From positions 7,326-18,916 of the forward strand of contig PLSY01000414.1 in NCBI GenBank assembly GCA_003164275.1: a stretch of 11,591 nt of DNA, read 5' to 3'. The translations under genes were made by a program, and so were the position numbers. Positions 808 to 11,165 of the stretch are shown here, piece after piece (within the stretch, counting starts at the first letter, position 1; each line of letters begins with the position of its first letter). The notes beneath the pieces are model-generated. The model had not been told where the DNA came from and did no database searches. It saw only the letters and a list, made by a program, of their open reading frames with translations. The DNA comes from Acidimicrobiaceae bacterium. Lineage in GTDB: Bacteria; Actinomycetota; Acidimicrobiia; Acidimicrobiales; RAAP-2.

Positions 808-906
808 TCTACGGTGCAACTTCTGAGCAGTTCTTGGGGGGCGCCATCGTCTCGATCGATCAGACAATCTCCTGGGCGCACCAGACGAGTTCGACTGAGC
901 CCGCCG

Positions 907-1104
907 TCACACCTTCTCGAGTTTCCTAATCCTGACGTTTTCTCCGCCACGGCCGGTCGGTTGGTCGAGCTGAACAACCCAGATTCTTAAATGGAGGATG
1001 CGGCCCCGCCGGATGATGGTCCCGATGCGAAGTTTGACCGGAGTCTCCAAACAGCGGACCCGATCACCAGGCACGAACTTGTCGTCGGGAGTCTTCGATG
1101 CCAT
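907..1104 (-). CDS. Small basic protein, 65 aa, possible SH3/KOW-like beta-barrel; function unknown
   Basis: A 65-residue protein with alternating charged and hydrophobic stretches: a PGDRVR turn near residues 12-17, then RIGTIIRR (about 26-33), LRIWVVQLD (about 39-47) and GGENVRIRKLEKV at the C-terminus. The pattern GDRVR...GTI-R...WVVQLD...ENVR..KLE is what small SH3/KOW-type domains look like, and about two thirds of codons end in G or C by my count, as in coding DNA here. The ATG start is my choice; a TTG three codons upstream (1113) is possible. The ribosome site is weak (GGGA close to the ATG). It lies tail to tail with the SDR gene across two hairpins and head to head with the HD gene, which supports a real gene. 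No clear promoter is seen. It could still be a chance frame. Confidence 0.4.
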   Translation of the reverse strand: MASKTPDDKFVPGDRVRCLETPVKLRIGTIIRRGRILHLRIWVVQLDQPTGRGGENVRIRKLEKV

Positions 1105-1221
1105 AGATCCCAAGTGAATGGCTTAGGTCCTGTTGGAGATCTGGACCGAACGTACTACCCACTCCCAAGTGCTCCTTGCCCAGGACGCGGCACTGTGGGT
1201 CAAGGCGGCGCCCGCTGATTG

Positions 1222-1249
1222 TTGACAGGCATCCCATCCGGCGTATTAT
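1222..1249 (+). promoter_or_regulatory. Promoter of the HD-domain gene
   Basis: Consensus -35 TTGACA (1222-1227) and -10 TATTAT (1244-1249), spacer 16. Transcription would start near 1256, giving a leader of about 28 bases with a strong purine-rich ribosome site (GGGGGAGG, 1272-1279) just before the ATG at 1284. The -10 box is the left arm of the palindrome annotated at 1244-1259. Confidence 0.6.
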
Positions 1250-1259
1250 CTGAATAATA
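1244..1259. promoter_or_regulatory. Operator-like palindrome over the -10 box and start site
   Basis: Perfect 6-bp arms TATTAT (1244-1249) and ATAATA (1254-1259) separated by CTGA. A repressor bound here would cover the -10 box and predicted start point. The binding protein is unknown; the GntR regulator in this window is a candidate by proximity only. AT-rich arms raise the chance of coincidence. Confidence 0.35.
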
Positions 1260-1283
1260 AGAGTTGAACGAGGGGGAGGTCGT

Positions 1284-1895
1284 ATGGCGACCGAGTACGA
1301 CGTTGTAGCGAGCTTCACCTGCATGGACGACGGCACCGAGGCAGAGATTAAAGAGGTCATGGGCATTGCTGCCCCGTACCTCCAAGGGCATATGCTCAAC
1401 AATCTTCTCGAGATGCTGGAGAGTCTTCGCGGTCCCACGCTCGGCTATCAGGTTGACCGCTACGAGCATTCGCTCCAGACGGCCACGCGGGCATATCGAG
1501 ACGAGGCGAGTCCAGATATGTTGATGGCTGCCCTGTTCCACGACATCGGGGATGGGATCGCTCCGGCGAACCACAGTGAGTTGGCAGCAGCTGTCCTCGA
1601 GCCCTATCTCGACGACGAGAGTACGTGGGTCGTTCGCCACCACGGGGTGTTCCAGGGATATCACTACTGGCACAAGATGGGCGGAAATCGCAATGCCCGT
1701 GACCGTTACCTTGGGAATCCTTACTTCGATAGCACCGCTCGCTTCTGCGAAGCATGGGACCAGCGCTCATTCGATCCGAACTATGACACCCTGCCCCTTG
1801 AGACATTTATGCCGACCGTCAACGAAGTTTTCGCTCGGAAGCCTCGTCTTGAAGTGTTCGGCGAGGAAAACGCCCTGGTCCCATCGGGCTACTAA
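1284..1895 (+). CDS. HD-domain protein, PhnZ/MIOX-like putative di-iron oxygenase
   Basis: Soluble 203-residue metal protein of the HD superfamily. Likely ligands: His62 (YEHSLQTA), His86-Asp87 (ALFHDIGD), His97 (NHSELAA), His119/His120 (VRHHGVFQGYHYW) and Asp159 (CEAWD). His62 to His86-Asp87 is 24 residues, the spacing I recall for PhnZ (His34, His58-Asp59), and total length is similar. PhnZ and myo-inositol oxygenase are HD proteins that use a mixed-valence di-iron site and O2 to cleave C-P or C-C bonds; other HD relatives are phosphohydrolases. The aromatic-rich stretch after His120 and the CEAWDQRSFDP segment may line a pocket. Start chosen at the ATG after GGGGGAGG. It has its own promoter with an operator-like palindrome and is followed by a 265-base gap, so it is probably monocistronic. 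No C-P lyase, AEP or inositol gene is nearby, so the substrate is open. Fold is confident; oxygenase chemistry is inference. Confidence 0.75.
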   Translation: MATEYDVVASFTCMDDGTEAEIKEVMGIAAPYLQGHMLNNLLEMLESLRGPTLGYQVDRYEHSLQTATRAYRDEASPDMLMAALFHDIGDGIAPANHSELAAAVLEPYLDDESTWVVRHHGVFQGYHYWHKMGGNRNARDRYLGNPYFDSTARFCEAWDQRSFDPNYDTLPLETFMPTVNEVFARKPRLEVFGEENALVPSGY

Positions 1896-2037
1896 GGCAC
1901 CCTGTCTCTGCTGCTCGGGTCGGGCCACAACAACACCGGAGAGACAACAGAGCCGGAAATCTCAGTGGGGACCCAGGGCTGAATTGGAGTGCTGGTCAAC
2001 ACCCCACTTCATCTGCGGCTCGGGTGCCGGACTAGGT

Positions 2038-2070
2038 ACTACGTAGTCACTTTTGCCAATTCTAGATTGG
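2038..2070. promoter_or_regulatory. Two adjacent palindromes upstream of the acyl-CoA synthetase gene
   Basis: ACTACGTAGT (2038-2047) is a perfect 10-bp palindrome, followed by CCAAT (2056-2060) / ATTGG (2066-2070) around TCTAG. Both lie about 90-120 bases before the GTG start at 2161, where a promoter and operators are expected. A poor -10 candidate TAGATT (2063-2068) falls inside the second one. The rest of 1896-2160 holds only weak stems, for example AGTGGGG 1964-1970 / CCCCACT 2002-2008, and no credible gene. Confidence 0.35.
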
Positions 2071-2160
2071 GCAGTCGCGGTTCGGTATTCGGGGCCGTCC
2101 GAGGATGTTGCTGTGGCCTCCGAGTGAGGGTCAACAACGGCTACAGAAGGAGTCGAAATC

Positions 2161-3816
2161 GTGAAGGTCGAAGAGGAGACTTTTCGGAACATGGCTAACC
2201 CCGAGTTGGCTCAGCTCTATCGGCGAAAGGGCTGGTGGGGTGACGTGACCGTTGCCGACTTGGTCGATCGATGGGCAGACGAGAAACCAGACGGAGATGC
2301 CATAGTTACGCTCACCGATCGAATGAGCTGGCGCGGGTACCGGGATGCCTCCAACTGGCTGGCTCAATGTCTCGTAGCCGCTGGAATCGATCCGGGCGAA
2401 AAGGTGGCCGTGTTCCTGCCGGACGGCGCGAGCGTTCATGTGGCGTTTCTGGCCAACGAAAAGGCCGGCGCCATCACGGTCGGTATCGGAGCCCGATCTG
2501 GACATGAGGAGATCCGTCACCTCCTTCGAAGGACCGGGGCAGTCGCCATCATCACCTTGAGCGAGCACCGGCAAGAGGACATGACCTGCCTGGTCGACAC
2601 CCTTCGCTCGGAGGGAATCGCTGTGCGAAAACACATCGTCGTCCCTATTTTCGAGGCCGGTCTTGACTCGCCGATCGTCATCGACGGGATCAAATTCCCC
2701 TACGAGACGGTCGATGGGGCCCAGTTCCTGGATCGGCATCTTGGCCCGGATGACCTGTTCATGATCAACTCAACTTCAGGCACCACCGGATTGCCGAAGT
2801 GCGTCATGCACACCCAGAACTCGAAGTTGTACATGGCCCACCAGGCATGCGAGGCGGGACAATTGCGAGGAGACGAGGTTCTCCTCGGACTGGCGCCAGT
2901 GCCCTTCGGGTTCGGTCTGTTCACTACGCATTTCGTCACGGCTTTGTTGGGAGCGGCCACCGTAGTTCTGGAGCGGTTCTCTGCCGACTCGGCAATCGAG
3001 GTGATCGAACGCGAGAAGGTGACCGTCTTGGTGTGCGTCAGCACCCAGTTCAAGATGATGCTGAACTCGCCGGAGATCTTGGAGAGGGGCGTCTCTTCGC
3101 TGCGAGTTATGTTCACCGGTGGCGAGATGATTCCCTACGACGCGGCCCGAAACTTCGAGAAGGTTACGGGTTCGATCGTCTTGAACTTCTATGGCTCGAA
3201 TGAGAGTGGGTTTGCCACCGGAACCCGAGTGACTGACAGTCCCGAGCATCGGCTCCGCACCGGGGGCTCCAAACTCGCCGGCACCGACGTCCGTCTGTTC
3301 GACGAGGGTTTGGATGTGACCGACTTAGGGCGAGGACAGCCCGGAAGCCGTGGACCGTCACTTTGCCTTGGCTACTACGACGACCCAGAGGCAAATGCCC
3401 AACTGTTCACTCCCGACGGCTATCTACTGCACGCCGACATCGTGACTCTTGACGACGAGGGCTTTCTGACGGTCGTGGGAAGGAAGTCTGAAATCATCAT
3501 TCGCGGCGGCAAGAACATCAGCGCCGCAGTGGTCGAAGACCTTGTGTCAACGCATCCCGCCGTGGCGCTCGCCGCCGCAGTCCCTATGCCTGACCCAGTT
3601 TTCGGGGAAAAGGTCTGCGTATTCGTGGAACTTCGTCCCGGCACGACGGTGGACCTGGCTGGCTTGCTCGAGTTTCTCTCGACTAGCGATGCTTCGAAGG
3701 AGAACTACCCCGAGCGGCTGGTCGTACTTGATGAACTGCCCCGTTCGTCGGGAGGAAAGGTTGCCAAAGGGGTGCTGACCTCTGAGGCGGCCAAGCTTGC
3801 CGCTGTCAACACCTGA
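2161..3816 (+). CDS. Acyl-CoA synthetase / AMP-dependent acid-CoA ligase (ANL superfamily)
   Basis: Activates a carboxylic acid as acyl-AMP and transfers it to CoA, in the cytoplasm. Full length at 551 residues: the phosphate-binding motif STSGTTGLPK (about 204-213), the FTGGEM segment, adenine motif NFYGSNESG (342-350), the A7 region DGYLLHADIVTLDDEGFLTVVGR with the ribose-binding Asp426, hinge motif GRKSEIIIRGGKNIS (440-454) and catalytic Lys533 in the C-terminal motif SSGGKVAKG. In A7, LHAD replaces the usual RTGD, though the Asp is kept. GTG start chosen because AGAAGGAG (2145-2152) sits 8 bases before it; an in-frame ATG at 2191 has no such site. The overall look (length, GGKNIS hinge) recalls aromatic or alicyclic carboxylate ligases more than long-chain fatty acid ligases, but specificity is not readable. 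Convergent with the GntR gene, 42 bases apart. Confidence 0.9.
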   Translation: MKVEEETFRNMANPELAQLYRRKGWWGDVTVADLVDRWADEKPDGDAIVTLTDRMSWRGYRDASNWLAQCLVAAGIDPGEKVAVFLPDGASVHVAFLANEKAGAITVGIGARSGHEEIRHLLRRTGAVAIITLSEHRQEDMTCLVDTLRSEGIAVRKHIVVPIFEAGLDSPIVIDGIKFPYETVDGAQFLDRHLGPDDLFMINSTSGTTGLPKCVMHTQNSKLYMAHQACEAGQLRGDEVLLGLAPVPFGFGLFTTHFVTALLGAATVVLERFSADSAIEVIEREKVTVLVCVSTQFKMMLNSPEILERGVSSLRVMFTGGEMIPYDAARNFEKVTGSIVLNFYGSNESGFATGTRVTDSPEHRLRTGGSKLAGTDVRLFDEGLDVTDLGRGQPGSRGPSLCLGYYDDPEANAQLFTPDGYLLHADIVTLDDEGFLTVVGRKSEIIIRGGKNISAAVVEDLVSTHPAVALAAAVPMPDPVFGEKVCVFVELRPGTTVDLAGLLEFLSTSDASKENYPERLVVLDELPRSSGGKVAKGVLTSEAAKLAAVNT

Positions 3817-3832
3817 GGGCGATCTTGGGCTG

Positions 3833-3852
3833 AGCGGCACAAGTGTGACGCT
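3833..3852. terminator. Inverted repeat between convergent genes, probable bidirectional terminator
   Basis: The arms AGCGGCAC (3833-3840) and GTGACGCT (3845-3852) pair with one mismatch (G3837/A3848) around a 4-base loop. It lies inside the 42-base space between the stop codons of the acyl-CoA synthetase (plus) and the GntR gene (minus), exactly where a shared terminator is expected. There is no T-run on either side. Confidence 0.45.
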
Positions 3853-3858
3853 GGGCTG

Positions 3859-4671
3859 CTAGATCGAATTGAGTTCCTGATGGACCAGGAGCGGGTCGAT
3901 GGGGGCGCCGGCCTTTCGGCTAGTGGCGGTCGATCGCGCCACCTCGGATGGATAGCGCTGGGCGAACTCGAGATGTTTGGAGCACAGCTCTCGGACCTGG
4001 ACTGAGTCCCCGTCGGCGATCAGCTGGATGATTTCTGTATGGATGTCCAGAGCGTTCTGGCGCTCTTCAATAGGCACCAATCCGGGGTCTCTCATGTGAT
4101 TGGCCCAATCAGTCTCGTGGCTGGACCAGAGAACCTCGAGCGCCCCGACAATGACCTTGAGAGGCTCATTGCCGCAGAGCTCGACGATGGCTTCGTGAAA
4201 TCGCCGGGAAGTCGTAGTGGCTAAGACGAGGTCGGAGACACTCGCCAAGGACTCCTTTTGGATAGCTCGAAGCTTTGGCAGCACCGCTCGCTTGCGGTCT
4301 TTACGCTCGGCGCACAGCGCCGCACAGGCCGGCTCGCACTCTTGGAGAGCCTTTGCCACCGCCAGAGTGCCGGTGCCCTGGGAGCGAAGCACCAAGGCCA
4401 GCGTGTAGGCGACGTTGGAGGCCGAGGGACGATGGACGACGGCTCCGCCCATGTTTCCCCGCCGGATGCTGATGAGGCCCTCCGTCTCTAGGATGCGCAT
4501 AGCCTCCCGGAGCGAGGGCTTGCTGATCGGATAGGTGGCCCGTAAGACGTCCTCTTTGGGCAGGAGGTCACCATCTTTCAAGTCGCCGGTCAGAATCTGA
4601 TCCCGAAGATGATCTGCGACCGATGCAGCCACTCGCTGCCACTTCAAGTTGGCAAGTGGTACTTCGCTCAT
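3859..4671 (-). CDS. GntR family transcriptional regulator, FadR/FCD subfamily
   Basis: DNA-binding regulator, probably a repressor released by a pathway carboxylate, acting as a dimer. 270 residues. The N-terminal winged helix-turn-helix spans about 12-82: VADHLRDQILTGDLKDGDLLPKE, the recognition region SKPSLREAMRILETEGL (50-66) and the wing IRRGNMGGAVV. The C-terminal all-helical FCD domain (about 100-240) has the metal-site histidines His159 (RRFHEAI), His211 (HTEII) and His233 (SKHLEF). The Asp usually four residues before the first His is Ser155 here, so metal binding may be altered. The start is supported by AAAGGAGAG (4678-4686 on the minus strand). The gene is divergent from the aldolase/amidohydrolase unit over a 170-base gap, the usual arrangement for a local regulator; its targets probably include that promoter and perhaps the importer, acyl-CoA synthetase and HD promoters. 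It ends with a 30-residue tail after the FCD domain. Confidence 0.9.
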   Translation of the reverse strand: MSEVPLANLKWQRVAASVADHLRDQILTGDLKDGDLLPKEDVLRATYPISKPSLREAMRILETEGLISIRRGNMGGAVVHRPSASNVAYTLALVLRSQGTGTLAVAKALQECEPACAALCAERKDRKRAVLPKLRAIQKESLASVSDLVLATTTSRRFHEAIVELCGNEPLKVIVGALEVLWSSHETDWANHMRDPGLVPIEERQNALDIHTEIIQLIADGDSVQVRELCSKHLEFAQRYPSEVARSTATSRKAGAPIDPLLVHQELNSI

Positions 4672-4755
4672 GTGCGACTCTCCTTTCTCCTGTTTGTGGA
4701 CTGCCTTGTGTTGTTAGCTCAGGCTACTCATCTCGGATACACCCCTAGGATTGAT

Positions 4756-4776
4756 TGCATCGCTCTTGAAGATGCA
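4756..4776. promoter_or_regulatory. Inverted repeat in the divergent regulator/aldolase intergenic region
   Basis: TGCATC (4756-4761) and GATGCA (4771-4776) are perfect 6-bp arms, centres 15 bases apart, lying between the GntR gene and the aldolase promoter. It is placed to act as an operator for the regulator's own promoter, which I could not identify clearly. It does not match the palindrome at 4811-4825. Confidence 0.3.
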
Positions 4777-4805
4777 CGCTGATCCACGCGGTCCATTGAA
4801 CCAAC

Positions 4806-4835
4806 TTGACAGTTAAGTCCTAACTTCTAGATAAT
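4806..4835 (+). promoter_or_regulatory. Promoter of the aldolase/amidohydrolase unit, probably giving a leaderless mRNA
   Basis: Consensus -35 TTGACA (4806-4811) and -10 GATAAT (4830-4835), spacer 18. The first base of the ATG (4842) lies 7 bases past the -10 box, where RNA synthesis normally begins, and no ribosome-binding sequence precedes the ATG. Leaderless starts are common in actinobacteria. The spacer holds the palindrome annotated at 4811-4825. Confidence 0.6.
4811..4825. promoter_or_regulatory. Operator-like palindrome between -35 and -10
   Basis: AGTTA (4811-4815) and TAACT (4821-4825) are perfect 5-bp arms around AGTCC, beginning at the last base of the -35 box and filling the spacer. 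A protein bound here would block RNA polymerase. The divergent GntR regulator is the natural candidate, but the sequence is not an obvious FadR-type TGGTnnnACCA site. Confidence 0.4.
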
Positions 4836-4841
4836 AAAGCC

Positions 4842-5621
4842 ATGGCAGTCACCAGTGAAGTGGTTCGGGAGGGCGGTCTCAAGGTCTGGTCCCCATCGAT
4901 CGTCCCGCCCATTGGGGTTGATCTCACCGATCAGCAGAAGCTTGCCTGTTCGTTCCGGTGGTTGGCTCGAGAGAGCTTCTCCGAGAACATTTCGGGCCAC
5001 ATCACGTGGCAGCGATCAGGCGACGAGTCACTGCTGATCAATCCCTGGGGACTCTGGTGGCGAGAGATCTCTGCATCTGACATCTGCGCCGTGGACTTCG
5101 ACGCCAAAGTGGTCGCCGGCAAGTGGGATGTAACTCCGGCCGTGCATATCCATACCGAGCTTCACCGCCGGAGGCCGGATGCCAGAGTGGTCATTCACAA
5201 TCATCCGTATCACGCATGCGTGCTTGCTGCCGTCGGGAAGCTGCCCGACATCCACCATCAGAGTGGGACCGTGTATCTCGATGACCTGGTGATGGTTCGT
5301 GAATATGCCGGTGAGATCGACTCACCGCAGTTGGGATCAGAGCTGGCAGAGCAGATCGGTGATGCCAGCGTGGCTGTCCTAGCCAACCACGGCGTAGTCG
5401 TTACTGGGCCCACCATCGAAGAGGCGACATTCCGTGCCGCCACGTTCGACCGTGCCTGTCGCATGGCCTACGACGTGCTGTTGATGGGCGAAGCACCTAT
5501 TCAAATTCCCAAGGGTCCGGCGCTGGGTATGAAGGCGTCAATCCTCGAGCGAGGATCTGATGTCTACTTCGCGGGAGCGGCCCGACGGCTGATCCGTGAG
5601 GAACCGGACGTCCTTCTCTAG
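4842..5621 (+). CDS. Class II aldolase/adducin family protein
   Basis: Zinc-dependent lyase-fold enzyme of the FucA/AraD family, cytoplasmic, 259 residues. Seen: the substrate/phosphate loop ENISGHIT (48-55), INPWGLWW (66-73), the zinc ligands His119 and His121 in VIHNHP, and the third His183 in ANHGVVVTG. The acid that does aldol chemistry in FucA (Glu73, in SSEW) aligns with Ala100 (TPAVHIH), as in many unassigned adducin-like members, so a retro-aldol reaction on a sugar phosphate is unlikely. The family also includes decarboxylases such as those acting on dihydroxyphthalate, and epimerases; one of these fits the catabolic setting better. The ATG start is supported by promoter spacing rather than a ribosome site. 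It is the first gene of a two-gene unit, 47 bases from the amidohydrolase. Fold confident, reaction unknown. Confidence 0.85.
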   Translation: MAVTSEVVREGGLKVWSPSIVPPIGVDLTDQQKLACSFRWLARESFSENISGHITWQRSGDESLLINPWGLWWREISASDICAVDFDAKVVAGKWDVTPAVHIHTELHRRRPDARVVIHNHPYHACVLAAVGKLPDIHHQSGTVYLDDLVMVREYAGEIDSPQLGSELAEQIGDASVAVLANHGVVVTGPTIEEATFRAATFDRACRMAYDVLLMGEAPIQIPKGPALGMKASILERGSDVYFAGAARRLIREEPDVLL

Positions 5622-5668: not shown

Positions 5669-6928
5669 GTGCTTTCCCTTGACGATCTACTAGCCAACTC
5701 CGAGTTCACGGCGTCTGGCCGTGCGGGAGACAAATCTGTCACGTTCCTGCCAGAGCCACCCCGAGCCGAGCGGCTCTACACGGTCATCTCCGCCGATGAT
5801 CACATCGTGGAGCCACCGACGGTCTTCGAAGGGAGAGTGCCCAGACGCTACGCCGAGCGGGCTCCCCGGATCATCGAGAAGGACGACGGGACCGAGACAT
5901 GGGTCTACGACGGAGTCGAGCTTCCGAACGTGGGGTTCAACGCGGTCGTTGGCCGACCCGTGAGCGAATGGAGAATGGAGCCGACCCGCTTCGATGAGAT
6001 GCGCCGTGGGGCCTGGGACATCCACAAGCGCATCGAAGACATGGATCTCAACGGCATTTACGCCTCGTTGAACTTCCCCTCCTTTCTGCCGGGCTTTGCT
6101 GGGCAGCGGCTGCAGCGAGTGACTAAGGATACCGAGCTGGCGATGGCGTCGGTACGAGCCTGGAACGATTGGCATCTAGAAGAATGGGCTGGGTCCTACC
6201 CCGAACGCATCATCCCGTGTCAGATTCCTTGGCTTCTCGATGCCGAGGTCGGAGCCGAGATGATTCGCCAGAATGCCGAACGGGGATTCAAAGCGGTCAC
6301 TTTCAGCGAAGAGCCGAGCAAGCTCGGATTTCCCAGCATCCACTCTGGCTACTGGGAGCCCTTCTTCCAGGCGTGCGCTGAGACCGGCACTGTCATCAAC
6401 CTCCACATCGGCTCTTCAGGCTCGTCACCGGCGACGACAGCCGATGCGCCACCGGATGTTGCTGGTGTCCTCTTCTTTGCCTACGCCATCTCAGCCGCAG
6501 TGGACTGGTTGTACTCGTTGGCCCCCGTCCGTTTTCCCGATCTGAAGATCTGCCTGTCAGAGGGCGGGATCGGTTGGGTGCCCGCGTTGCTCGATCGGCT
6601 TGATCACATGAACCGCTACAACTCCATGTACGGAACGTGGCAGGATCCCCTGTCTCCCTCCGATGTCCTGAAGCGGAACTTTTGGTTCTGTGCCGTAGAG
6701 GATCAGTCAACCTTTGCCCTACGGGACCGCATCGGGGTCGACAACATTCTTCTCGAGTCCGACTATCCCCACAGCGACTCCACTTGGCCGGAGACCCAGC
6801 GGGTGATTCACGAGGAGATCGGCGGACTTCCTGCTGAGGACATCAAGAAGATGACCTGGGAGAACGCCTCCAAGCTTTACCGCCATCCGGTTCCACAAGC
6901 TGTCCAAGACTCACCGGATGCGTTCTAG
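5669..6928 (+). CDS. Amidohydrolase family 2 (ACMSD-like) TIM-barrel metal-dependent hydrolase/decarboxylase
   Basis: Metal-dependent (beta/alpha)8-barrel enzyme, 419 residues, cytoplasmic. Family members hydrolyse amides or lactones or decarboxylate aromatic acids (ACMSD, gamma-resorcylate and 5-carboxyvanillate decarboxylases). Likely metal and catalytic residues: Asp43/Asp44 and His45 in SADDHIVEPP (Dx-H instead of the usual HxH), His246 in NLHIGSSG, Glu298 in CLSEGGIGW, and Asp365 in ESDYPHSDSTWP. The first 36 residues before the barrel are polar and variable; the C-terminus ENASKLYRH is a common family ending. GTG start chosen because TGAGGAG (5654-5660) lies 8 bases upstream. It follows the aldolase-like gene by 47 bases and probably shares its mRNA, suggesting consecutive steps or one multi-step reaction. 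It could be hydrolase or decarboxylase; the sequence alone does not say. Confidence 0.88.
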   Translation: MLSLDDLLANSEFTASGRAGDKSVTFLPEPPRAERLYTVISADDHIVEPPTVFEGRVPRRYAERAPRIIEKDDGTETWVYDGVELPNVGFNAVVGRPVSEWRMEPTRFDEMRRGAWDIHKRIEDMDLNGIYASLNFPSFLPGFAGQRLQRVTKDTELAMASVRAWNDWHLEEWAGSYPERIIPCQIPWLLDAEVGAEMIRQNAERGFKAVTFSEEPSKLGFPSIHSGYWEPFFQACAETGTVINLHIGSSGSSPATTADAPPDVAGVLFFAYAISAAVDWLYSLAPVRFPDLKICLSEGGIGWVPALLDRLDHMNRYNSMYGTWQDPLSPSDVLKRNFWFCAVEDQSTFALRDRIGVDNILLESDYPHSDSTWPETQRVIHEEIGGLPAEDIKKMTWENASKLYRHPVPQAVQDSPDAF

Positions 6929-6986: not shown

Positions 6987-7012
6987 CGGAAAGTGCCGAA
7001 ACTCACTTTCCG
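6987..7012. promoter_or_regulatory. Strong inverted repeat CGGAAAGTG / CACTTTCCG upstream of the importer
   Basis: Perfect 9-bp arms (6987-6995 and 7004-7012) around an 8-base spacer, 58 bases after the amidohydrolase stop. Two readings fit: an intrinsic terminator of the upstream unit (no T-run follows), or an operator, since the right arm overlaps the position of the -35 element of the promoter at 7027-7035. It may do both. Confidence 0.5.
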
Positions 7013-7018
7013 ACCTTC

Positions 7019-7035
7019 GTTATTAATGTTATAAC
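7019..7035 (+). promoter_or_regulatory. Extended -10 promoter of the importer operon, with a small palindrome
   Basis: TGTTATAAC (7027-7035) is an extended -10 element (TGn before TATAAC); the -35 region near 7007-7012 (TTTCCG) is weak, as is usual for this promoter type. GTTAT (7019-7023) and ATAAC (7031-7035) form a 17-base palindrome over it. A leader of about 45 bases would precede the ATG at 7089, which has AGGGGGA (7079-7085) as ribosome site. Confidence 0.5.
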
Positions 7036-7088
7036 TTTGGCGAGTCACTGTCCGCTTGTAACCGGATGAAAACGAAATAGGGGGAAAC

Positions 7089-8357
7089 ATGTCGCATTCT
7101 GATGCTCTACCTTCGCGTCAGCGATCTTCAAAACAGGGACTGCTCGTTGCCGCGCTCGGAGTAGTCATTCTCGTAGCCACCGTTCTGGCGGGAACTGGGG
7201 CCGCCAGCTCGGCAGGCGCCGCCTCCGCCGGTAAGCCAGGCACGAACGCCACGGGGACGCCGATCATCGTCGGCGAGGACTGGGACTCAACCAGTGCCAG
7301 CGCTTCGTTCACCGACGTAACGGGCAAGTCAATCGGACTGGCGATCACCCAGTTGAACAAGACGGGTGGGATCAAGGGTCACCCGATCAAGCTGGTCATC
7401 GGCAACGACGAGAGTGACCCGACGAAGACACCGGCTGTCACTGAGCAGCTGGCCAGCGAGGGCGCCAAGTTCATCTTGTTCAACACCGGAACCGACGCCA
7501 CGGCCAAACCGACCATCCAGAAGTTGGGAATCCCGTCGATCGGCGTGACCGACGTTATCCCGACGTTCGCGGTGGCACCCGACAACAGCTACACCTACCT
7601 GCTGTCAAGCCCGTTGGGCGACTGGGCCTCGGTCTACTGCGGCGCCTGGAAGAAGACGGGGATCAAGACGATCGGTGTGCTCCGCGACGATTCGACCACC
7701 ACAGCTTCTCTGGATGACATTCTTTTTCCCGCTCTCCAGAAGTGCGTGAAGATCGTGGATGTCGAGACGGCGTCCGGAACCACCTCGGATGTTACGGCAC
7801 AGGTCGCCCGGCTGAAGAGCCACAACCCCGATGCGGTTCTCGTGGCAGATCTGGGTGGAAGCTTTGAGATTCTCGCCCAGGAAGGCGTGCACCAGCTGAT
7901 GCCGAGCACGCCTCGTTACTCGCTTGCCACCATTGTGAATGAGCCGGCGACCTGGTCGTTGGCCTCTGCGGGATCGCTGAATGGCGTCATTTCCATGGGA
8001 TCGCTGAACCCGAAGAATCCGCAGACGGTGAAGTTGAAGGCGTTCCTTGCTGAGCACGACGGGCCCAGCTACCCGATGACCGCTTTCGATGCCGACGCCT
8101 GGGATGCCGTGCAGCTGATGAAGACGGCAATGGTCGCGGCCGGCGGAGGCAACAACCCGGCAGCGACCAACACTCAGATGCAGGCCATCACGAAGTACCT
8201 CGCTTCGTTTGGCCAGCCAGGATACGACCTGACGTACTCGGCTACGAAGCACGCAGGGGCAACCGGGCTTTGCGGACTCGTGTTGCAGCAGTTCGGTGCA
8301 AACAACAAGCCCACCAAGGCGTTTGCTGCCTATCAGCCATCCTGTACGGGTTCCTAA
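7089..8357 (+). CDS. Branched-chain amino acid-type ABC transporter substrate-binding protein
   Basis: Extracellular ligand-binding subunit of a LivJ/LivK-type (HAAT) importer, 422 residues, Peripla_BP_6 fold. A basic N-region is followed by a hydrophobic segment (about 17-35) and an Ala/Gly/Ser-rich stretch up to about residue 47 with several AxA-type cleavage options. The usual lipobox Cys is absent: LAGT (33-36) stands where LAGC would be expected, so this looks like a cleaved or N-terminally anchored protein, not a lipoprotein. The mature part shows the family signature NKTGGIKGHPIKLVIGNDESDPTKTPAVTEQL (about 90-121) and GIPSIGVTD. Four cysteines (184, 219, 395, 419) could form two disulphides. 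First gene of the importer operon, 42 bases before the permease. HAAT binding proteins take amino acids, amides, urea, aromatic and other organic acids; the catabolic neighbours favour a carboxylate here, but this is inference. Confidence 0.92.
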   Translation: MSHSDALPSRQRSSKQGLLVAALGVVILVATVLAGTGAASSAGAASAGKPGTNATGTPIIVGEDWDSTSASASFTDVTGKSIGLAITQLNKTGGIKGHPIKLVIGNDESDPTKTPAVTEQLASEGAKFILFNTGTDATAKPTIQKLGIPSIGVTDVIPTFAVAPDNSYTYLLSSPLGDWASVYCGAWKKTGIKTIGVLRDDSTTTASLDDILFPALQKCVKIVDVETASGTTSDVTAQVARLKSHNPDAVLVADLGGSFEILAQEGVHQLMPSTPRYSLATIVNEPATWSLASAGSLNGVISMGSLNPKNPQTVKLKAFLAEHDGPSYPMTAFDADAWDAVQLMKTAMVAAGGGNNPAATNTQMQAITKYLASFGQPGYDLTYSATKHAGATGLCGLVLQQFGANNKPTKAFAAYQPSCTGS

Positions 8358-8399: not shown

Positions 8400-9275
8400 A
8401 TGACGGATCCGCAATTATGGATATCAGCGGCTGAGCTCGGATGCTTCTTCGGGCTCCTGGCCCTCTCGTACTATGTCGTACTGGCCGGCACGGGGTTCTT
8501 CAACTTTGCTGTCGGCCCGTACGCCATGGTTGCGGGGCTGTGTGCGACATGGCTGGTGATCAATCACGGCTTTGAAGTTTGGGGTGCTGTGGCTATCGCC
8601 ATTGTGGCGACGATGGTGCTTGCCGCAGCCACAGAGCTCGCTGTTGTTAGACCGGTGCAGCGACGATCGGGGAGGAGTGAGTTACCCCCACTCGTCGCTG
8701 TAACGGCCGTCCTCTTCGCCATCGAGCAGCTTGCCGGCGTGATCTTCGGTTACACGACGCTGCCAGGACAGCAGCTGGTTAACTTCGCTCCGATCTTGAT
8801 CGGTTCTTCGGTGATCGCCCCATCGGACCTTCTGCTGGTGATTGTGACGGTCGTCGTGTTCGTGGCAATGGCCCTCTGGGTCAGATATGCACGGACCGGC
8901 CGTTTGCTCAGGGCTATCGGCGACGGCCGCGACGCGGCCCAACTTCTCGGTCTTCCCGTCAACAGGATCCGTCTGGTCGCCTTCATACTTTCTGGTCTCT
9001 TGGCTGGGATCGCCGGTCTGCTGTTCGCCCCCAAGGCGGGAGTCAGTTCAACGAGCGGATTGGATTGGGCGCTGAGCGGATTCCTGGCACTGGTCGTCGG
9101 GGGGACCGCCACCGTGTGGGCTCCTCTCATCGGAGGACTCATTCTTGGGGCGCTTCAGATCTTCATCCCCTTCTACTTTGGTGGTCCGTCCCTCTCCTAT
9201 TTGCTTCTCATTCTGGCCATCGTGTTCTTCGCCTTCCGCCCCCAGGGGATCTTTGTTCGACGGGTACGCGTATGA
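8400..9275 (+). CDS. livH: Branched-chain amino acid-type ABC transporter permease, LivH-like
   Basis: Inner-membrane channel subunit of the importer, 291 residues with about eight hydrophobic segments. Family signs: the N-terminal TGFFNFAVGPYAMVAG segment (LivH proteins have a similar LxNFAxG motif), the cytoplasmic coupling loop LRAIGDGRDAAQLLGLPVNRIR that contacts the ATPase, directly followed by a helix FILSGLLAGIAGLLF, and GGTATVWAPLIGGLILG near the C-terminus, the usual GGxGxxxGxxxGG region (here VWAP where GSxxGP is common). ATG start with AGGAAG (8388-8393) 6 bases upstream. The stop overlaps the next ATG by ATGA, so translation is coupled to the second permease. It pairs with LivM to form the heterodimeric pore. 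Confidence 0.92.
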   Translation: MTDPQLWISAAELGCFFGLLALSYYVVLAGTGFFNFAVGPYAMVAGLCATWLVINHGFEVWGAVAIAIVATMVLAAATELAVVRPVQRRSGRSELPPLVAVTAVLFAIEQLAGVIFGYTTLPGQQLVNFAPILIGSSVIAPSDLLLVIVTVVVFVAMALWVRYARTGRLLRAIGDGRDAAQLLGLPVNRIRLVAFILSGLLAGIAGLLFAPKAGVSSTSGLDWALSGFLALVVGGTATVWAPLIGGLILGALQIFIPFYFGGPSLSYLLLILAIVFFAFRPQGIFVRRVRV

Positions 9276-10312
9276 CCACCGAGCCCGTGGTGGACCTCAA
9301 ACCAGATGGTTCAGAGCCGAGGGGTGGTCGGCGTCCACCGTGGCCAAGCGGACTTCAGGCAAACGGCTCCCTAGGTCTCGGGATCATCGCTGCCATCGGC
9401 ATACTCGTCTGGGTCGGAACGAACGGGTACAAGCAGACGCTGCTCGTGACCGCTGCTGCGTACGCATTGATCGCCCTTGGCATGTACATCCCGTTCGTAC
9501 TGGCAGGTTCTCTGTCATTGGCCTACGGCGCCTATGCCAGCATTGGGGGGTATGCGGTCGCCCTGATTTCGACGGAGACCCACCTCCCGCTGTGGTTCGG
9601 ATGGGTGATCGGCCCAATCATCGCTGCGGTGGCGGCGGCCATCCTCGGCATGGCCACGCGACGTCTGTCGGGGTTCTACCTCGTCGCCGTCACCCTCCTG
9701 TTCAGTGAGGCCTTTCAGGAATACTTAAGTAATGCCTCCTACACGGGAGGTAACGCGGGCCTGGCCAGTTTTCGCTCACTTGATGTCTTCGGTTGGCATC
9801 CCTCGACAAATCAGCTGATCATCGCCACGACCGCCGTTGTGGTCGTCACGGCCTTCTTTCTTAATCGCCTTCGCCTGAGTCCTTGGGGCATCGTCGTTCG
9901 TTCGATGCGCGAGGTACCAGCGGCCGTGGAGGCCGCCGGGGCACGGGTCCCGGTGGCGAATCTGATCGCCCTGGCCATCGGCGCCTCGGTGGGTGCACTC
10001 GGGGGTTGTCTCTTCACGCAGATGTCGGGATCGGTTCAGCCGACCACGTTCACGCTGAATCTGGTCTTCTTGGCCATCTTCATGCCGATCATCGGAGGCA
10101 CCGGTACACCTTGGGGTGCTGCCCTCGGCGCCGTCATAGTTGTGGAACTGACATTGAACCTCCCCTCACTGCACACCAGCGGCACCTTGTTGGTTTCTGC
10201 GGGAGTGCTGGTGATCATGCTGGTCGCCCCACAAGGGGTTCTGGGCTACCTGGATACCGGACGCAAGGAAATCATGCGTGCCTTCTCGACGAAGACGCCA
10301 CCCCATGAGTGA
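9272..10312 (+). CDS. livM: Branched-chain amino acid-type ABC transporter permease, LivM-like
   Basis: Second membrane subunit, 346 residues from the ATG at 9272. The frame stays open upstream to 9065, but those codons lie inside livH and encode no membrane segment; the ATGA overlap fixes the real start. After a polar 28-residue N-terminus come about nine hydrophobic segments, with GSLSLAYGAYASIGGYAVALI (family pore motif), the coupling loop VRSMREVPAAVEAAGARVPVANLIALAIGASVGALGGCLF, and GGTGTPWGAALGAVIV, then a short cytoplasmic tail. The loop Arg-Glu-x-Pro-x-Ala-Ala pattern is typical of LivM partners of LivG/LivF. It overlaps the LivG start by 8 bases, so the operon is tightly coupled. Confidence 0.92.
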   Translation: MTTEPVVDLKPDGSEPRGGRRPPWPSGLQANGSLGLGIIAAIGILVWVGTNGYKQTLLVTAAAYALIALGMYIPFVLAGSLSLAYGAYASIGGYAVALISTETHLPLWFGWVIGPIIAAVAAAILGMATRRLSGFYLVAVTLLFSEAFQEYLSNASYTGGNAGLASFRSLDVFGWHPSTNQLIIATTAVVVVTAFFLNRLRLSPWGIVVRSMREVPAAVEAAGARVPVANLIALAIGASVGALGGCLFTQMSGSVQPTTFTLNLVFLAIFMPIIGGTGTPWGAALGAVIVVELTLNLPSLHTSGTLLVSAGVLVIMLVAPQGVLGYLDTGRKEIMRAFSTKTPPHE

Positions 10313-11165
10313 CGAGGCCCTTCTTCTCGAAGGGGTGGGCCTCGGAAAGCGCTACGGCGGAGTGGTTGCCTTGAGCGATGTGTCCATCCGACTGTCGGCA
10401 GGGGAGATCCTGGGCCTCGTCGGCCCCAACGGGGCCGGCAAGACCACGCTTGTGGACTGTATTTCGGGAACTCAATCCGCTAACTCGGGTGACCTGCGAC
10501 TGCGTGGCGTGAAGCTCTCGGGTCCGGCATCGAAGCGGGCGAAACTCGGCCTCGCCCGCACCTTCCAATATCCGCAACTGGCCCAAGACCTCACCGTTGG
10601 GGAGAACCTCCTACTGGGCAGGGTGGCCATGCGTCACAGTTCATGGTGGCGCATGATCTGGCAGGCCGTCATCGGGGCATTCTGGGTCGGTTCGACTTCG
10701 GACGCCACAGTCGTGCAAGGGATTGCCGACGAGCTCCAGATCACCCGACTCGACCGGCTCGCCGGCGATCTGACTCTAGGTGAGCAGCGCCTGCTGGAAG
10801 TGGGCCGTGCGCTCGGCCAGGATCCGGTGGTGCTGCTCCTTGACGAACCGTTTGCCGGATCGGATGCCAATGGTGTGGCTGGGATCATCGAAGTCATTCG
10901 AACGATCCAAAAGCGGGGCCACGGGATCATCCTGGTGGACCACAACGTGGACCTCGTGTCTTCCATGGCCGATCGCATCATGCTGCTGGATCAGGGAAAA
11001 GTTGTCTTCGACGGCGATCCGAAGGAGTGCATCGCCAGTCCTCAGATGCAGCGGGTGTACTTCGGTGCCGCCGATCTCGACGACGATCTTGAAGAAGGAG
11101 CCGCCGAAGACCCGCTCGCAGCGGATGGCAGTGAAGTCAGTCAGGACTTTCGCCATGTCCCCTGA
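10305..11165 (+). CDS. livG: Branched-chain amino acid-type ABC transporter ATPase, LivG-like
   Basis: Cytoplasmic ATP-hydrolysing subunit of the importer, 286 residues from the ATG at 10305. Walker A GPNGAGKTT (40-48), signature LTLGEQ (156-161; the usual LivG form is LSYGQQ, so this is a variant), Walker B with LLLDEP (catalytic Glu181), D-loop AGSD, and switch His213 in DHNVDLV. The LivG-typical region after Walker A (ARTFQYPQLAQDLTVGENLLLG) is present. The C-terminus runs about 30 residues past the usual VYFG ending as an acidic tail (DLDDDLEEGAAEDP...). An in-frame GTG at 10278 preceded by AAGGAA would add nine residues rich in Arg; I prefer the ATG because homologues start close to it. 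It overlaps livM by 8 bases and livF by 11. Confidence 0.9.
   Translation: MSDEALLLEGVGLGKRYGGVVALSDVSIRLSAGEILGLVGPNGAGKTTLVDCISGTQSANSGDLRLRGVKLSGPASKRAKLGLARTFQYPQLAQDLTVGENLLLGRVAMRHSSWWRMIWQAVIGAFWVGSTSDATVVQGIADELQITRLDRLAGDLTLGEQRLLEVGRALGQDPVVLLLDEPFAGSDANGVAGIIEVIRTIQKRGHGIILVDHNVDLVSSMADRIMLLDQGKVVFDGDPKECIASPQMQRVYFGAADLDDDLEEGAAEDPLAADGSEVSQDFRHVP

Follow-up and report, generated by a model that had tools for sequence, protein, structure and literature searches.

The window analysed here, an 11,591-nucleotide stretch of an Acidimicrobiaceae genome (GenBank assembly GCA_003164275.1, contig PLSY01000414.1, positions 7,326 to 18,916, forward strand), encodes an HD-domain protein among genes that appear to serve the uptake and degradation of an organic acid. 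The HD protein has the fold and the metal-ligand set of the oxygenases PhnZ, TmpB and MIOX, stands apart from the PhnZ family, and lies in a gene module that recurs in other genomes. It is quite probably an O2-using member of the oxygenase class. Our favoured reading, which we judge evenly balanced, goes further: rather than a phosphohydrolase, it would be a di-iron enzyme akin to PhnZ, TmpB and MIOX that cleaves an alpha-hydroxy acid within the acid module. The layout is given below; residue counts refer to a 94-member alignment of the HD protein's family and to 16 PhnZ-type sequences.

1–681, + strand: short-chain dehydrogenase (SDR; Pfam adh_short_C2), 5' end truncated at the window edge
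1222–1249, + strand: sigma-70-like promoter, TTGACA-16-TATTAT, 34 bases 5' of the HD start codon (consensus match only)
1284–1895, + strand: HD protein, predicted mixed-valence di-iron C-C-cleaving oxygenase (profile, alignment, structure comparison)
1467–1469, + strand: codon of predicted metal ligand H62 (94/94 family members)
1539–1544, + strand: codons of predicted metal ligands H86 and D87 (94/94)
1572–1574, + strand: codon of predicted metal ligand H97 (94/94; His in 16/16 PhnZ-type)
1641–1643, + strand: codon of predicted metal ligand H120 (94/94; His in 16/16 PhnZ-type)
1758–1760, + strand: codon of predicted metal ligand D159 (93/94; Asp in 16/16 PhnZ-type)
2161–3816, + strand: acyl-coenzyme A (CoA) ligase, AMP-binding family (Pfam AMP-binding), start codon uncertain
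3859–4671, − strand: GntR/FCD regulator (Pfam GntR and FCD)
4806–4835, + strand: sigma-70-like promoter, TTGACA-18-GATAAT, 5' of the aldolase-fold gene (consensus match only)
4842–5621, + strand: class II aldolase-fold protein, predicted TqaM/NovR-type iron oxygenase (Pfam Aldolase_II)
5669–6928, + strand: Amidohydro_2 protein with dinuclear monooxygenase (ARO) ligand pattern (alignment to solved relatives)
7089–8357, + strand: ATP-binding cassette (ABC) substrate-binding protein (Pfam Peripla_BP_6)
8400–9275, + strand: ABC permease, LivH type (Pfam BPD_transp_2)
9065–10312, + strand: ABC permease, LivM type (Pfam BPD_transp_2 from residue 126; reading frame over-extended 5', true start further in)
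10278–11165, + strand: ABC ATPase, LivG type (Pfam ABC_tran)

The HD open reading frame encodes 203 residues from an ATG start, with GAGGGGGAGG directly 5'. The promoter before it agrees with the consensus at 11/12 bases, and the region 900–5000 holds 3 sigma-70-like sites vs a mean of 0.9 in shuffles; an operator for the GntR regulator common to the window's intergenic regions was searched for and not found. Pfam bore out the neighbours listed in an earlier note on this DNA (AMP-binding ligase, GntR with FCD, Aldolase_II, Amidohydro_2) and showed in addition the SDR on the upstream side and, downstream, an ABC importer of the branched-chain type. It is uncertain whether the SDR is part of the acid module; SDR-type genes occupy 10/240 slots adjoining HD genes of relatives, the window's own counted.

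Metal site and pocket of the HD protein

Every residue that the earlier note had singled out in the HD protein is present, and all six metal-ligand positions were found, in the order H...HD...H...H...D within the HD fold. H62 and H86 are 24 residues apart, as the note had said, and align to PhnZ in HMMER without a gap between those positions; the PhnZ spacing, which we take to be H34 to H58, is also 24 residues. In the family alignment (17 database proteins and 77 of 122 locus proteins, hand-picked for clean ends and spread), H62, Q65, A67, A70, H86, D87, H97 and H120 are identical in every sequence and D159 is kept in all but one, so that the pattern is not due to chance. The note had listed H119/120 as a ligand; H120 is invariant but H119 is His in just 64/94, making H120 the likely ligand.

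When the predicted structure was compared with solved ones, PhnZ ranked first (17.7), followed by TmpB (16.6) and MIOX (11.4), with the next structure at 8.6; the best matches are thus the three known kinds of HD oxygenase, the rest being clearly lower. Foldseek likewise gave ten matches at E ≤ 0.001, all of them PhnZ or TmpB. Run against all PDB sequences, the family profile found PhnZ (E 1.5e-13), TmpB (E 2e-11) and nothing else below E 0.1; Cas10 and the HD protein Lmo0812 followed at E 0.19. By profile and structure, PhnZ and TmpB lead widely among the homologues. Neither outcome that the earlier note had named as refuting its view, a one-metal phosphohydrolase-type site or nucleotide hydrolases as closest homologues, was observed.

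Kinship with PhnZ is not membership of its family. Against cut-offs of 214.6 bits for the Phn-HD model and 300 bits for the TmpB model, the window protein reached 29.5 and 23.2 bits, respectively, which places it outside the curated families (TIGR03276, NF049941). Both models match 94/94 members weakly at E ≤ 1e-3, and the commonest models outside the HD oxygenases are PII uridylyltransferase (15/94) and HDIG (12/94). Across 190 Alphaproteobacteria, Phn-HD matches formed two groups, full-length ones at 147–239 bits vs family matches at ~30–44 bits spanning some 40–100 positions, besides stray fragments at 136, 66, 59 and 34 bits; by eye, 21 of the 66 matching genomes carry both types. A maximum-likelihood tree, midpoint-rooted and with its bootstrap not fully settled, set 16 PhnZ-type apart from the 94 family sequences with 100/100 support.

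The PhnZ-type sequences came from 16 of 30 loci, filtered by a pattern requiring the first His, the following Gln and Ala, HD, and Gly, so that invariance at those positions holds by construction; columns 90, 97, 120, 124, 156 and 159 lie outside the pattern. In the joint alignment the six ligand columns coincide, whereas four pocket columns are switched: column 90 is His in 16/16 PhnZ-type vs Asp in 82/94 family sequences, column 124 Lys in 16/16 vs Gln in 92/94, column 156 Arg in 16/16 vs Glu or Ala in 61/94, and column 55 Glu in 12/16 vs Tyr or Phe in 87/94. In PhnZ itself, we take Lys108, His62 and Arg158 to be the residues that hold the phosphonate. Conserved in the family only are R59 (88/94) and R139 (93/94). 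The catalytic core thus appears to be kept and the substrate site rebuilt. According to a review, Glu27 of PhnZ comes near the substrate amino group (PMC8177086). TmpB (PDB 6npa; (R)-1-hydroxy-2-trimethylaminoethylphosphonate oxygenase) likewise differs from the window protein in its pocket residues.

That the HD protein is a divergent true PhnZ cleaving an alpha-hydroxyphosphonate would suit PhnZ being its nearest solved relative (PDB 4n71, 4mln, 4n6w; 2-amino-1-hydroxyethylphosphonate oxygenase; 22% identity over the structural alignment). It would also suit a Halomonas locus (L063) in which the HD gene's partner (8607–9905) passes the NCBIfam TmpA cut-off (437.6 vs 400). Such an identity is nevertheless very improbable given the low curated score, the separate clade, the replacement of the Lys, His and Arg invariant in PhnZ-type sequences, the occurrence of both types side by side in one genome (G1185, G1187, G1191), and a window without phosphonate genes. 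The Halomonas HD protein (195 residues) scores 45.9 bits on the TmpB model, below the cut-off, and hence is not TmpB, so that automatic annotation may there name an absent phosphonate pathway. Replaced pocket residues and an organic-acid neighbourhood agree with the earlier note, which had placed the protein outside any phosphonate setting. Membership of the true PhnZ, MIOX and hydrolase families was rejected on curated scores, Pfam, and profile and structure searches; weak cytochrome b5 matches were dismissed as chance.

The acid module and gene neighbourhoods

Two neighbours of the HD gene resemble oxygenases under other labels, a point absent from the earlier note. The amidohydrolase is closest by sequence to DitZ (8uyr; E 4.5e-76), for which a literature search gave no functional paper, and is also related to PtmU3 (E 8.1e-38). 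Its D43, H45, H246, E298, D365, H368 and D370 line up with PtmU3 residues of like kind, which gives it the ligand pattern of the amidohydrolase-related dinuclear oxygenases (PtmU3, AibH2, SfbO): Asp-x-His, His, Glu and Asp-x-x-His with an adjacent acidic residue (D-x-H, H, E, D-x-x-H-x-D/E). The AibH2 ligands used for comparison are those listed in PMC7782822; the group of dinuclear monooxygenases has been named ARO (PMC10811679). PtmU3, as described in the former source, takes CoA-linked substrates (PMC7782822), which fits the CoA ligase in the window.

The aldolase-fold protein has TqaM as its nearest solved relative (E 1.5e-22), with NovR at E 1.4e-15 and other solved aldolases at E 3e-18 and weaker; ~180 residues aligned with TqaM and NovR/CloR, which act on alpha-hydroxy or alpha-keto acids. 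Its sequence has H-x-H and NHG motifs, with an Ala at what we take to be the position of FucA Glu73, features bearing on a putative three-His iron site that would lack the catalytic Glu of aldolases. TqaM decarboxylatively oxidises 3-amino-2-hydroxy-3-methylbutanoate, an alpha-hydroxy acid (PMC11880133), and CloR/NovR takes an alpha-keto acid through a mandelate and on to a benzoate, using O2 and a three-His iron (PMC13111500). With the ARO ligand pattern and the nearness to TqaM and NovR, the labels 'amidohydrolase' and 'aldolase' are probably misleading.

The module was seen again in Prescottella, Nocardia and a genome from the Acidimicrobiia-class search. The Prescottella locus (L001) reads HD, HD, aldolase II, amidohydrolase, GntR (reverse) and CoA ligase; in L195, CoA ligase and HD lie on one strand and aldolase II and amidohydrolase on the other, followed by GntR; the Nocardia locus (L002) reads GntR, amidohydrolase, HD and CoA ligase, aldolase II not being called there. 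The Acidimicrobiia-class search gave a locus (L196) with GntR/FCD in reverse, then co-directional amidohydrolase, HD, binding protein, two permeases and ATPase, confirmed by Pfam; neither ligase nor aldolase II was called in it. The regulator belongs to the window's GntR cluster in all four loci; in L001, L002 and L195 the amidohydrolase and the ligase found near HD, in a changed order, also fall into the window's clusters. Recurrence of the set in other orders argues that the HD gene belongs to the module.

The solved relatives of the CoA ligase at E ≤ 1e-50 are 2,3-dihydroxybenzoate- and salicylate-AMP ligase, hinting at an aromatic or ring acid as the window's substrate. As a separate observation by eye, genes resembling a meta-cleavage aromatic pathway (hydrolase, flavin-monooxygenase-like, extradiol-dioxygenase-like) adjoin the module in L002 and L195; L002:15580–16740, the sole gene of that set scanned, matches Acyl-CoA_dh_2. 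On plasmid pTM2 of Tistrella mobilis, TauD, a class II aldolase and an ABC importer lie divergent from HD and GntR.

The wider comparison covered 181 loci, the window plus 80 from one scan (heavy in SAR11) and 100 from genome searches, with genes called by a custom script rather than an annotation pipeline; their 185 HD genes reduced to 123 representatives at 80% identity. Among 61 of the 63 co-directional upstream genes of these representatives (≤250 bases away, ≥110 residues; two long reading frames omitted), TauD was the Pfam family met most often, with 11 genes; PhyH accounted for 5, Aldolase_II for 4 and ring-hydroxylating oxygenase for 2. Genes for 2-oxoglutarate (2OG) oxygenases of the TauD and PhyH families fill 19/240 slots adjoining HD vs 5/705 slots at least four genes off (odds ratio 12, p 3e-8), a p value that is optimistic because the 2OG models were built from clusters picked for recurrence near HD; the upstream Pfam count is free of that choice. 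By models trained on the family's partners, a 2OG gene lies within 1.5 kb in 18/114 family loci (not dereplicated) vs 6/30 PhnZ-type loci, so that HD genes of both kinds are paired at comparable rates.

Three Halomonadaceae loci (L051, L063, L077) share a row of TmpA-like oxygenase, HD, thiamine-diphosphate 2-oxoacid decarboxylase, choline-type binding protein and aminotransferase, the family scan having been made on L063. L051 also has a gamma-butyrobetaine-dioxygenase-like gene (328 bits, under the 414.75 cut-off) and, by clustering, a BKACE-type gene. The row could be a route from trimethyllysine to gamma-butyrobetaine.

A candidate carbon–carbon cleavage and its rivals

The earlier note's proposal of a di-iron oxygenase in an organic-acid pathway is supported by the structural ranking, the profiles and the six ligand positions; iron and a mixed-valence state at the site we infer, and by analogy an alpha-hydroxy acid has about an even chance of being the substrate class. 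PhnZ converts R-CH(OH)-PO3 to R-COO and phosphate. The HD protein would carry out the carbon analogue, R-CH(OH)-COO + O2 to R-COO + bicarbonate: the alpha-hydroxy acid would bind one iron, O2 would be activated at the other, and abstraction of the C2 hydrogen would be followed by C1–C2 cleavage, giving an acid one carbon shorter and bicarbonate or CO2. It would work with the importer, CoA ligase and GntR regulator in acid uptake and degradation, and the predicted dinuclear monooxygenase and TqaM/NovR-type oxygenase may make or consume the alpha-hydroxy intermediate.

The recurring logic would be an oxygenase able to create an alpha-hydroxy acid, followed by HD. Tentatively, and with some doubt, the family might serve quite generally as the second of two enzymes in a modular route that shortens acids by one carbon, the first, an oxygenase, being interchangeable (TauD, PhyH, TqaM/NovR or amidohydrolase type). 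If so, the route could, in the glycine-betaine and carnitine gene sets, for instance make glycine betaine from beta-alanine betaine, which is the carboxylate counterpart of the phosphonate that TmpA acts on, or gamma-butyrobetaine from trimethyllysine-derived 5-trimethylammoniopentanoate. The window would then unite in a single catabolic module three metalloenzymes that use O2 and go by the labels hydrolase, aldolase and amidohydrolase.

Several observations weigh against alpha-hydroxy-acid cleavage by the HD protein. The basis of that step is analogy and partner chemistry, not assay. Pfam found no 2OG oxygenase in the window, custom models found none within three genes of 101/123 dereplicated members, and the annotated plasmid loci of Ruegeria and Phaeobacter have no 2OG gene either. 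Among 41 of 42 downstream genes (one omitted), SDR comes first with 4, ahead of PhyH with 2 and TauD with 1, so that oxygenases do not lead there. Carnitine-type, sarcosine-oxidase-like and purF-like genes are among the many other neighbours, a mixture suggesting that the family may have several substrates. The YxxE loop, a PhnZ and TmpB feature described in PMC8177086, is absent. R59 lies three residues ahead of H62, where PhnZ-type sequences have Gln in 11/16, and a strictly conserved Arg ahead of the first His is said there to be common to all HD phosphatases (PMC8177086); R59 may or may not be the equivalent of that Arg. The same source gives six ligands for the hydrolase YqeK (PMC8177086).

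These last two points would suit the reading behind the common label, in which the HD protein depends on metal to act as a phosphohydrolase or phosphodiesterase. YqeK and other HD phosphohydrolases have the HD core in common with the window protein, and the sole Pfam domain of the latter at E ≤ 0.01 is the general HD domain (PF01966, 30.9 bits). With PhnZ and TmpB leading the profile and structure searches, we consider this reading improbable.

A rather unlikely but weightier rival is an HD di-iron oxygenase that, like MIOX, cleaves a vicinal diol or polyol, with the CoA ligase and the amidohydrolase-type monooxygenase building or feeding the diol. The structural ranking and the ligand set fit it equally, the MIOX alignment also takes in the C-terminal part of the model as far as residue 187, and hydroxylated substrates could come from the adjoining SDR and the monooxygenase-like protein. 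Identity to MIOX (myo-inositol oxygenase; PDB 2huo, 2ibn) is 14–16%, Pfam gave no MIOX match at E ≤ 0.01, and the window has no inositol genes. A di-iron protein of the same fold that uses O2 for another reaction, such as hydroxylation or desaturation, or that serves in binding or sensing, could be argued from the pocket residues, which are unlike those of PhnZ-type sequences so that the chemistry could differ too, and from the diverse gene contexts. It is quite improbable, since the six ligands are retained in nearly all members and all three HD oxygenases described in the review cleave a C-X bond (PMC8177086).

Distribution of the family and phnZ counts

The HD oxygenases described in two reviews act on phosphonates (PhnZ, TmpB and variants) or inositol (MIOX) (PMC8177086, PMC10574752), and further ones are foreseen as awaiting discovery (PMC8177086). 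The family described here is large: of the 8,000 candidates that a database search passed on for scoring, 7,884 reached E ≤ 0.001, a lower bound on the number of relatives, and the usual names among the 120 matches listed, where named, are 'predicted HD phosphohydrolase' or 'HD domain-containing protein'. Searches of the open-access literature on HD mixed-valent di-iron oxygenases, COG4341, TmpA/TmpB with trimethyllysine, HD oxygenases with carnitine or gamma-butyrobetaine, and the degradation of valerobetaine listed nothing on this subfamily, the one paper with COG4341 being a genome report. At E ≤ 1e-15 the family was found in 209/1174 sampled genomes, five of them the centre genomes that were chosen as carriers and are counted in their sets: 96/247 in the class of an Acidimicrobiia genome, 23/296 in that of Prescottella, 21/274 in that of Halomonas, 67/240 in that of a Rhodospirillales genome, and 2/117 in the phylum of Nostoc. 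If the oxygenase assignment is true, this sister family, whose members number in the thousands and combine the shared metal site with a conserved pocket of another kind, would be a large and so far unexploited source of enzymes that break bonds with O2, and it offers directly testable enzyme pairs.

The family bears on marine phnZ counts. All 15 Pelagibacteraceae genomes behind loci L027, L040, L041, L053, L055, L056, L058, L059, L068–L071, L073, L074 and L079 carry it; a PhnZ-type gene was found in 3 of them (~165 bits, under the 214.6 cut-off) and not in the other 12, the genomes being small and probably incomplete. Loose annotation could therefore overstate phosphonate use in such counts. 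One study reports that Pelagibacterales account for 45% of marine phnZ sequences in a set curated by conserved residues (PMC9381506), a set that may or may not include the present family.

Tandem pairs of family HD genes occur at L001:9245–10549 and L266:3375–4746, and single genomes hold up to four family matches (G159; one with an internal stop). The member on a Phaeobacter inhibens plasmid (L325, HD at 6992–7615) is annotated 'inositol oxygenase family protein'. The gene after it belongs to the sterol desaturase family, which is another type of di-iron oxygenase.
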